Assembly: GCF_026210795.1 (NCBI RefSeq) | Contig: NC_089432.1 | Location: forward strand, 2,728,001-2,792,000 | Source: Rhizophagus irregularis | Lineage: Eukaryota; Glomeromycota; Glomeromycetes; Glomerales; Glomeraceae | Reading direction: 5' to 3' | Length of the DNA stretch: 64,000 nucleotides | Shown: positions 59,500 through 63,714 of the stretch, one piece after another | How positions within the stretch are numbered: the stretch's first letter is position 1 | Layout: each line of letters begins with the position of its first letter | Notes under the pieces: model-generated | The model's database searches: none | What the model was told of the DNA's origin: nothing | Seen by the model: the letters and a program-made list of their open reading frames with translations, nothing else | Position numbers and translations under genes: made by a program

Positions 59500-59715
59500 G
59501 GCGCAATGTAAAAAAAAACGTGGCAAGAATACTCTCATGCGTCTCTTTTGTTTCACCCTCGTTAATAAAACAACAATTTTGCAAATGATTACGGCTAAAA
59601 AATAATTATTAACATCAAAATCTCGCATTTCCTCATGAATTTTAACATAGCCATGGCACAATATAGAAAAACGTGGCAAAATACTCTTGTACGCCTCCTT
59701 TACTTCGCTCGCCTT
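59500..59715. repeat. Pair of ~66-bp direct repeats upstream of the repeat-peptide gene
   Basis: The copies at about 59503-59570 and 59652-59716 share TGGC-CAAT, AAAAACGTGGCAA, AATACTCT and CGCCTCCTTT/CGTCTCTTTT blocks. The second copy ends about 125 bp before the ATG at 59840, so it may carry regulatory sites. Confidence 0.6.
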
Positions 59716-59756
59716 TAAATAATTTGGAATATATGTTATTATAAAAAAATTTTCTT

Positions 59757-59765
59757 ATATAAATA
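59757..59765 (+). promoter_or_regulatory. TATA-like box of repeat-peptide gene
   Basis: TATATAAAT lies about 83 bp upstream of the ATG at 59840, like the kinase A/B promoters and the small frame at 56715. Confidence 0.45.
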
Positions 59766-59839: not shown

Positions 59840-60171
59840 ATGAAATTCAAATACTTTTTGTTGATTTTCGTCATTACCATTGTTTTAGCGGGTAAATAAA
59901 TCATCATCTTACTTTATTAATATTAAAGAATCTTTTAATGAAAATTTGATAATTTAAATTCATTATTGACTCAGACGCAGCACCGTTTAATTATAAACGG
60001 GACGCAGACGCAGCACCGGCAGTTGCATTTAAACGAGACGCAGACGCAGCACCGGGGGTTGGATTTAAACGGGACGCAGACGCAGCACCGGTTGAATATA
60101 AACGGGACGCAGACGCAGCACCAACTTTAGACGCTCCAATACCCCCAATCGGGGGCGGACCGCCAACATGA
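59840..60171 (+). CDS. Secreted repeat-peptide precursor with Kex2-type KR sites
   Basis: Two exons, 59840-59891 and 59975-60171, with an 83-nt intron (GTAAAT, GACTCAG), give 82 aa. Residues 1-17 (MKFKYFLLIFVITIVLA) are a signal peptide, and the intron falls right at its end. Then come DAAPFNYKR, DADAAPAVAFKR, DADAAPGVGFKR and DADAAPVEYKR, and a final DADAAPTLDAPIP with PIGGGPPT. KR is the classical Kex2 cleavage site in the Golgi. The following DA-DA-AP is a run of X-Ala/X-Pro dipeptides of the kind trimmed by Ste13-type dipeptidyl aminopeptidase, as in alpha-factor precursors. Processing would release short peptides (with or without the header) such as AVAF, GVGF or VEY. The coding repeats (GACGCAGACGCAGCACCG at 60001, 60037, 60073 and 60106) are GC-rich and nearly identical, while the cores vary. 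Whether the product is a pheromone, signal or effector is unknown. The gene is too short and too spliced for ordinary ORF calling. Confidence 0.8.
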
Positions 60172-60224
60172 TGCGGATGCAGCAACAATTATAAACACAT
60201 ATTAATCGTGATGCAGATACAGAA
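60170..60224 (+). repeat. Decayed extra repeat units after the stop codon
   Basis: GATGCGGATGCAGCAAC at 60170 and GATGCAGATACAGAA at 60210 (after CGT) are degenerate copies of the GACGCAGACGCAGCACC unit, out of frame with the gene. They suggest a formerly longer array truncated by frameshift. Confidence 0.6.
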
Positions 60225-60486
60225 TAATTATTATTTGCTATATTTACTAGATATACAGTATAATATATTGATTTCAACAATAATATGTATATTTTGATTA
60301 TCGACAAATAAAATCTCATGTTTACTTACTAATTACTAGTTGCTAGTAGTGTATTTTTTACTCTTTTTTTTTTAATGATATTATCATGTCTGGATTGTCT
60401 TCGTTTTTCCTATTGTTCAGAATTCAAAATAACAGGGAAAAAATAATGGACCTACTTTCCCTATACAAAATTTTATACAAAAACTC
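60225..60486. other. Intergenic, AT-rich
   Basis: 3' flank of the repeat-peptide gene. CCCTATACAAAATTTTATAC at about 60459 resembles the terminal-repeat elements. Confidence 0.35.
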
Positions 60487-62163: not shown

Positions 62164-63714
62164 TTAATTTCCTTTTATAAAATCACTTGTACGAATCACT
62201 AAGCTAGAATAACTTTGCACTTTAATATTATACAACCCAAATTCTTTCACTTCATTGTTAAATGAAGATAAATCACTACTATGACCTCTAAGATCATATA
62301 ATGGAGTTATAAAGAAAGATAAATACTCAACTCTTTTCTTTTTTAAGATATATTTTTTTATAGAAGGTAAAATATCTTGACCTTCAATACTATAGATTAA
62401 TAATTTCTTAATAAAAGTATTTTGAGAATTTTTTAGAAATACTTCAAAATCAATTATTTTAATATGATGAAGAAATAAATGTAAATATTCTAATTTATAA
62501 GGAATATGTTGACCTAAATTTTGTAATATAATTGAACTACATCCATTACTGTCATATGATGTACTGATTGAAAGATGATTAAGATTTTGTTTAATACTTT
62601 CAATTAAATATAATACTGGATAAATAATTTGATCATCATTTCCAATTAAGTCAAGATATTTGATATTTTTACAATATTTTATAATTAATTCTAATATTTT
62701 TTGTTTTGATGATGAATTAGGTATAAATCCAAATTCATACCCAAAATTTTCTAAATAATCACCGAATTTTTGTAATAATAATTGTAATGATTCAATTTGT
62801 AATAATTCGTTTATAAATAAAGATTTCAATTTAAATGATTTAGTTAAATTAATAATTTGTTTAGTAAAATCATTATTTAAAGAAGTACATTTAATGATAT
62901 GAACTGATTCTAAAACATTTAGTCGTTCAAAAATTCTATTTAAATTGGTTATACTGTTAAAATCAACACAATAAAAAATGATTGTATTTAAAGTATTTGA
63001 ACAATTATAATCTTTTGATAATAATAATGATTGATATAAAGGAAAATTATTATGACGTAAGAAAATTCTTTTAAGATTTTGATGTAAATTAATTATTTGA
63101 AATATATAATCATTATTGTCGTTTTTGAGAACACCTGAAGTATTAATATAAAGGTTTAAATTTCTAATATTGTGAATGAAATTTATACTTTTTAAAATTA
63201 ACCCAAGTATAGTATTAAGACACGGGTAATAATAATTACCTGAGATCTCAATTTCAAGAGTATGTAAATTTACTTCATTTTCAATAAAAATTTTAAATAA
63301 TGATATATTAATCAATTTTCTAATATCAGATGCTCTATATTCGGGGTTTAAAGGTTTAATAGCAGTTTCAACCCACTTTTCAACAGAGATAATAAACTTA
63401 AATGTATTCAAATATTTTAAAAACTTGAGATAATTGAACAGGGTATTCGAAGGTAATGAATTATTAATAATTTTACATTCATTTAATTCCGTCTTAATAT
63501 CATCAGTTATATTATGTAAGTAAATTTCAATAAAATTATAGTTTCCGGTACGTGATGAAAAAGGATTTTCCCACAATAATGGGATCGCTAAACGACACCA
63601 TAATCTGTTGATTAAAGTGCACGAATATAAAGTTGAATGATCATTTTGAAAATATTTTATAACTCCATAAGTTAATTCAGGTAAATCTCCTGAAAATATT
63701 TTTGAACATGTCAT
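62164..63714 (-). CDS. F-box protein 4 (F-box/LRR-like)
   Basis: A single-exon 516-aa protein. The F-box at about 10-50 reads LPELTYGVIKYFQND and LYSCTLINRLWCRLAIPLLW. LRR-like strands (NIKYLDLI, LNHLSIST, LEYLHLFL) and the conserved C-terminal NSQNTFIKKLLIYSIEGQDI and KKKRVEYLS block follow. It is closest in layout to gene 2. A role as an SCF substrate adaptor is inferred from the family; the substrate is unknown. The conserved 17-bp motif lies 85 bp upstream. The gene is intact. Confidence 0.85.
   Translation of the reverse strand: MTCSKIFSGDLPELTYGVIKYFQNDHSTLYSCTLINRLWCRLAIPLLWENPFSSRTGNYNFIEIYLHNITDDIKTELNECKIINNSLPSNTLFNYLKFLKYLNTFKFIISVEKWVETAIKPLNPEYRASDIRKLINISLFKIFIENEVNLHTLEIEISGNYYYPCLNTILGLILKSINFIHNIRNLNLYINTSGVLKNDNNDYIFQIINLHQNLKRIFLRHNNFPLYQSLLLSKDYNCSNTLNTIIFYCVDFNSITNLNRIFERLNVLESVHIIKCTSLNNDFTKQIINLTKSFKLKSLFINELLQIESLQLLLQKFGDYLENFGYEFGFIPNSSSKQKILELIIKYCKNIKYLDLIGNDDQIIYPVLYLIESIKQNLNHLSISTSYDSNGCSSIILQNLGQHIPYKLEYLHLFLHHIKIIDFEVFLKNSQNTFIKKLLIYSIEGQDILPSIKKYILKKKRVEYLSFFITPLYDLRGHSSDLSSFNNEVKEFGLYNIKVQSYSSLVIRTSDFIKGN

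Follow-up and report, generated by a model that had tools for sequence, protein, structure and literature searches.

Precursors of the class to which this gene belongs are already known in Rhizophagus irregularis. Le Marquer 2019 (PMC6339444) described KEPs of this fungus that carry STE13 signatures and contain Tyr-rich peptides. In the available portion of that survey, KEPs are delimited by in silico cutting at KR, which has to leave at least four fragments of at least two amino acids; at least three similar repeats by FIMO and an N-terminal SignalP signal peptide with no further TM segment are also asked for. The survey started from protein catalogues and from repeats of sufficient similarity to be picked up as motifs. 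Kamel 2017 (PMC5293756) reported a group of R. irregularis repeat proteins that are putatively cleaved, have very short motifs and are for the most part expressed in planta, and the KEPs of Rhizophagus, Diversispora and Trichomonascus are grouped together in PMC7329392. A 2013 survey of R. irregularis identified a pathway for pheromone sensing and a gene for a STE3 receptor but none for a peptide pheromone (PMC3834313). In Agaricomycetes, mass spectrometry has shown that KEPs are processed to linear peptides, some of which have W as their last residue, while knockouts of KEPs had no phenotype in axenic culture (PMC9769878).

The gene considered here lies in a 64-kb stretch of R. irregularis DNA, the whole of which is referred to as the window. 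A sequence-only reading had placed at this position an alpha-factor-like precursor with a signal peptide, an intron and repeat units, in what it presumed to be a mycorrhizal fungus. The organism was rightly guessed, and the precursor, with a likely signal peptide, a predicted intron and repeat units, is confirmed by the sequence, the paralogues and a database protein. The four KR sites and four DADAAP headers are likewise present. The cores AVAF, GVGF and VEY and the Pro/Gly tail were correctly listed, but the first core, FNY, had been left out. The features are as follows.

59519 to 59534, + strand: copy of the shared upstream element, CGTGGCAAGAATACTC, with 1 mismatch, at -321 from the ATG and outside the common band
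59654 to 59695, + strand: second, composite copy, TGGCACAATATAGAAAAACGTGGCAAAATACTCTTGTACGCC, with the element at 59672 one A shorter; by eye it resembles the family consensus block
59756 to 59765, + strand: TATA-like box TATATAAATA, picked by eye; the TATATAAACACTTTGAGA block is conserved in an alignment of 30 sequences
59840 to 60171, + strand: precursor gene, two exons, 82-aa product
59840 to 59891, + strand: exon 1, likely signal peptide MKFKYFLLIFVITIVLA plus one base of the next codon
59892 to 59974, + strand: predicted intron, GTAAAT...CTCAG, 83 nt, phase 1
59975 to 60171, + strand: exon 2, with the stop TGA at 60169 to 60171
59975 to 60000, + strand: unit 1, (D)AAP-FNY-KR, as read from the sequence
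60001 to 60036, + strand: unit 2, DADAAP-AVAF-KR, with an in-phase alternative acceptor CAG at 60005 to 60007
60037 to 60072, + strand: unit 3, DADAAP-GVGF-KR, as read from the sequence
60073 to 60105, + strand: unit 4, DADAAP-VEY-KR (VVY in the database record P0001)
60106 to 60168, + strand: unit 5 or C-terminal tail, DADAAP-TLDAPIPPIGGGPPT, Pro/Gly, as read from the sequence
60170 to 60222, + strand: eroded sequence resembling the header, beyond the stop, GATGCGGATGCAGCAACA at 60170 to 60187 and CGTGATGCAGATACAG at 60207 to 60222, in the two other frames of a three-frame translation
60307 to 60312, + strand: AATAAA, possible polyadenylation signal

By eye, MKFKYFLLIFVITIVLA has the traits of a signal peptide: lysines at K2 and K4, a hydrophobic core of 13 residues and A at -1. 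Gene models and paralogues both speak for the predicted intron. The donor falls at 52 nt, the length of exon 1, in 27 of 34 paralogue gene calls, and the protein sequence of P0001 implies an identical join. The full product reads MKFKYFLLIFVITIVLA-DAAPFNY-KR-DADAAPAVAF-KR-DADAAPGVGF-KR-DADAAPVEY-KR-DADAAPTLDAPIPPIGGGPPT, with four KR sites. The 17-mer GACGCAGACGCAGCACC is exactly identical in four headers, at 60001, 60037, 60073 and 60106. The fifth header is split by the intron and reads DAAP immediately after it, which makes FNY the first core. When exon 2 was put through 5000 dinucleotide shuffles, four KRD in an open stretch never arose, the maximum being two. Cutting at KR in silico leaves five fragments after the signal peptide, and the STE13 signature is seen as DA-DA-AP in all four segments that follow a KR. 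A leucine-rich open frame of 516 amino acids (window 62164 to 63714, - strand) adjoins the precursor gene.

The gene shares with the described KEPs of its own species a likely signal peptide, the KR-separated repeats, the XA/XP headers and Tyr-rich peptides (PMC6339444). The promoter element, the family of 64 places, the rule of aromatic-ended cores of 3-4 residues and the unequal cores are not met with in the available portions of PMC6339444 and PMC5293756, though the gene itself may already be among those catalogued there. No prior description of the cassette or of the element appears in the titles and abstract beginnings of the literature matches listed. As far as these searches reach, what is new is how the cassette is built, the element, the core rule and how large the family is. 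The gene does not stand alone: it is one of a large dispersed family within the KEP class.

The ascomycete alpha-factor precursors (MF alpha 1) have tandem units and KR followed by EA/DA headers as this gene does, and a signal peptide, which is likely here, and the alpha-factor-like architecture holds up in the family-wide tests given below. The same cannot be said of a mating factor proper, which was not adopted: the cores of ascomycete alpha pheromones are 9-24 residues long according to the accessible text of PMC6339444, as opposed to 3-4 here, the window precursor has unequal cores and no long pro-region, and there is no receptor link. A Ste2-type receptor (PF02116) had no match in the genome, a weak test as the controls were likewise silent. 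A STE3 receptor gene is matched on contig C13. Agaricomycete KEPs are alike in the KEX2/STE13 layout and in W-ending peptides, but their peptides are longer and they belong to another phylum (PMC9769878, as far as its text was available).

For the analysis of the units, 32 curated precursors with 125 internal units, 47 of them unique, were used. They derive from 34 gene models, from which L019, L029, L034, L035 and the second L038 call were left out as bad models and to which hand-picked models of L035, L038b and L065 were added (34 - 5 + 3 = 32). Counted in register after KR, the X-Ala/X-Pro pairs have a mean of 2.15 per unique unit and 0.0 at offset 1; 2000 shuffles gave 0.37, with a maximum of 0.74. 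The proposal that the headers are trimmed as dipeptides is supported by this register. Removal of the header leaves a core of three (n=19) or four (n=14) residues in 33 of the 47 unique units, and F, Y or W stands directly before KR in 34/47, compared with 31/451 at other positions. Exceptions to this rule include the EDFN units of L032 and a 101-residue unit in L082. L032 (C16:3899710) has 28 KR sites and consists mostly of EDFN/KDFN units without an XA/XP header. Asp is written as GAC in 106/139 positions of the family headers, of which those at window 60001 to 60123 are an example, versus 37/59 in cores and tails and 26/205 in long open reading frames of the window; constraint was rejected as the explanation of this bias, which is taken as repeat history.

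The genome searched comprises 146.75 Mb in 32 contigs; a 32-chromosome assembly of the R. irregularis isolate DAOM197198 has been published (PMC10234402). DNA searches place the family at no fewer than 64 places on 19 contigs. Its members were recruited by four such searches, with the 5′ regions of the window gene and three relatives, and one further place was added from the header pattern. Each search scored 40 of 57-66 candidates, and the counts are lower bounds. Some members lie in clusters, as on C17 (2.90-2.97 Mb) and C20 (2.19-2.23 Mb), and others are solitary. Anchored gene calling returned 53 models, and a second rule set 34 with at least one KR unit. Six places have no ATG at the expected position (L005, L027, L067, L073, L075 and L084), and six more have an ATG and no splice or open-frame model. 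The first six are probably decayed copies, but L005 does have an ATG and a shortened leader. With so many places lacking an ATG or a gene model, the family has a birth-and-death look, and any single copy, the window gene included, could be silent.

The similarity among members is concentrated at the 5′ end, partly by construction, as they were recruited largely by that region. In pairwise comparisons of 29 of the 34 genes (five dropped), the 250 bp upstream match in 389 of 406 pairs (window gene 27/28), while the 250 bp downstream match in 36 (window gene 5/28). The introns are intermediate, with matches in 179/406 pairs (window gene 6/28). An alignment of 30 of the 34 sequences (four dropped) gives exon 1 a mean pairwise DNA identity of 0.807; the upstream blocks as far as -200 have identities of 0.58-0.71, and the block from -260 to -200 has 0.43. 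The header pattern used alone offers a small independent check: it finds five loci, on C4 (the window gene), C6, C20 and two on C24, and the 5′ region is present in all five. For the C6 copy no gene model was obtained, and it seems to have a shortened leader.

A conserved leader has a precedent in the genus. The AGLs of Rhizophagus have a DNA identity of 82.7-91.3% in the signal sequence and 41.5-60.8% in the mature part, and they too have one intron between the signal sequence and the mature protein; unlike the present family they are Pro/Gly-rich and GPI-anchored, and KR-DADAAP units do not feature in the available account (PMC8786786). In L082 and in the proteins P0031, P0035 and P0036, the family leader and one KR unit are fused to a longer C-terminal protein. 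Pfam matches under the cut-off were returned for P0035 (LptC, E 0.0013; LRAT, E 0.0053) and P0036 (LptC, 0.0029; LRAT, 0.016), and it may be that in these longer fusions a further domain was captured by the leader cassette. P0010 also has weak Pfam matches below the cut-off.

The upstream region shared by the family contains a 16-mer, CGTGGCAAAAATACTC, with 28 exact copies genome-wide and none of its reversed control. Of these, 21 precede a family 5′ match of the same strand by no more than 1 kb. When up to three mismatches are allowed, the element is found on the same strand within 900 bp upstream of 30/34 genes, and in 25/34 a copy falls between -159 and -215. It occurs in 1/34 on the opposite strand upstream and in 3/34 downstream on either strand. 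The second L038 call, one of the four genes without the element, has only 90 bp of upstream sequence. For the remaining seven exact sites, no family match is listed on the same strand at a distance of up to 1 kb. One of them, the L094 site on C26, proved to have a family member that is partly eroded and absent from the list (E 2.2e-24), and another, C26:2440854, is 626 bp upstream of that site on the same strand. A further one, L093 (C9:1428690-1429300), has an exact 16-mer and no family match in the 611 bases read. Within the window, the copy at 59519 is the only match at up to three mismatches on both strands. It is inferred that the element drives co-expression of the family genes.

At E up to 0.1, all five database matches of the precursor are R. 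irregularis proteins. One of them, P0001 (a cluster of three sequences), is 98% identical over the full length. It differs by VEY to VVY in a core and GPPT to GPAT in the tail; leader, headers and KR are the same and the frame is kept. P0002 (RirG_122040, DAOM 197198w) has 71 amino acids, lacks unit 1 and is exactly the product of splicing to the CAG at 60005-60007. Taken as a protein alone, its shortness could reflect either the choice of gene model or a real loss of a unit. An in-phase AG is present in 102 of 150 family units, each a candidate alternative acceptor, and such an AG within a unit accounts for P0002 as a gene model. These AGs do not count as evidence for regulated splicing, as they follow from A-ending codons placed before G-starting ones. 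The literature search returned no papers for the locus tag RirG_122040.

For a comparison between records, 14 public proteins were each paired by best score with a precursor from the genome searched, so that some pairs may be paralogues; proteins above 130 aa and pairs below 85% identity were skipped. The nine non-identical pairs have substitutions at 20/241 core or tail sites, 6/188 header sites, 1/122 leader sites and 2/56 KR sites (Fisher p 0.0015). Among these pairs, P0002 and P0029 have gap differences only, and P0025 and P0032 are nearly one protein; p is still 0.0015 without the near-duplicate P0032. The earlier description of variable cores between stable headers thus agrees with the records. 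Copy number also appears to vary between records, judging from P0010 and L031. A profile search recovered at least 47 proteins at E up to 1, with the 7993 candidates sharing most words scored. The same layout with other cores occurs in R. diaphanus (P0012) and Glomus cerebriforme (P0020, P0024), and weak relatives with this layout are found in Acaulospora colombiana (P0041, E 0.023; P0043, E 0.091). A Pfam scan of the window protein and of P0001 returned no family for either.

These records also bear on whether the window copy has lost its function and is left over from a birth-and-death family, which is unlikely, if the best placed of the alternatives. The eroded repeats downstream of the stop and the twelve family places described above as wanting an expected ATG or a model are what such a relic would lead one to expect. 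Frameshifts across the repeats had been named beforehand as grounds for giving up the precursor; they are present only past the stop, and the reading frame is intact. Splice sites are undamaged, none of the four KR is lost, the element is present, and the second record keeps the 82-aa frame with neither of its two substitutions in leader, header or KR.

As for the processing machinery, DPPIV_N (Ste13-type) is matched on C5 and on C12, and a Kex2-type P-domain is matched in part (57/86 positions) on C32. Kex2-type sites flanking short aromatic-rich cores are also a property of dikaritin precursors of the ustiloxin type, in which Tyr/Phe cores cut by Kex2 are cross-linked by UstYa/DUF3328 oxidases, and the question of such cyclic RiPPs has been raised for R. 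irregularis (PMC6339444). It is rather improbable that the present cores are modified in this way. No UstYa (PF11807) match was found in the fungus's own genome, a weak test as 14 control genomes were equally silent. The window precursor has STE13-type headers, which dikaritins do not share, and in-register XA/XP headers are an alpha-pheromone feature absent, in the text available, from the precursors of toxic cyclic tetrapeptides and epichloecyclins (PMC6339444). Least probable is a structural role at the surface of the hyphae, either of short peptides or of a repeat protein left uncut, as with Ustilago Rep1: the repeat architecture with KR and the variable cell-surface repeat proteins reported in the phylum (AGLs, PMC8786786) are in keeping with it, but Rep1 is without a STE13 signature as far as the available text goes (PMC6339444), tri- and tetrapeptides would make poor wall material, and the cores are unequal within one precursor.

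The best explanation, with a probability of about 0.68, is that the secreted precursors of a co-regulated and rapidly diverging family undergo Kex2/Kex1/Ste13-type processing into short linear peptides. Following transcription and splicing, the signal peptide would direct the precursor into the secretory pathway, where a Kex2-type protease would cleave after every KR. The K and R would then be trimmed by a Kex1-type carboxypeptidase, and the in-register DA-DA-AP header would be taken off by a Ste13-type dipeptidyl aminopeptidase. The predicted products are linear peptides of three or four residues, the last of them aromatic (FNY, AVAF, GVGF and VEY), and a longer tail peptide, which would be secreted and may act as signals. 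Across the family, the promoter element, leader, intron position and header are conserved, whereas there is turnover of the cores, of copy number and of the 3′ sequence.

The target of such signalling could be the fungus itself or the host with about even chances, and a mating and a host role of the predicted peptides are equally open. A bolder proposal, which is tentative and has the odds against it, is that of a peptide-library regulon. At least 30 genes under one cis-element and leader cassette would each release their own aromatic-ended tri- and tetrapeptides, the cassette remaining fixed as the cores diversify between paralogues and isolates, and the peptides might serve as an isolate-identity or host-directed code for unknown receptors. 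Conotoxin and nodule-peptide families likewise combine a fixed cassette with diversifying cores.

What kind of peptide, if any, arbuscular mycorrhizal fungi use as a signal is the question that these findings address. As the predicted peptides are short enough to be synthesized and the element is shared, this question can be put to the test with no need to transform the fungus, and from the element it can be predicted which family genes should rise together. That one control region and leader precede very different peptides suggests a diversified set of chemical signals.
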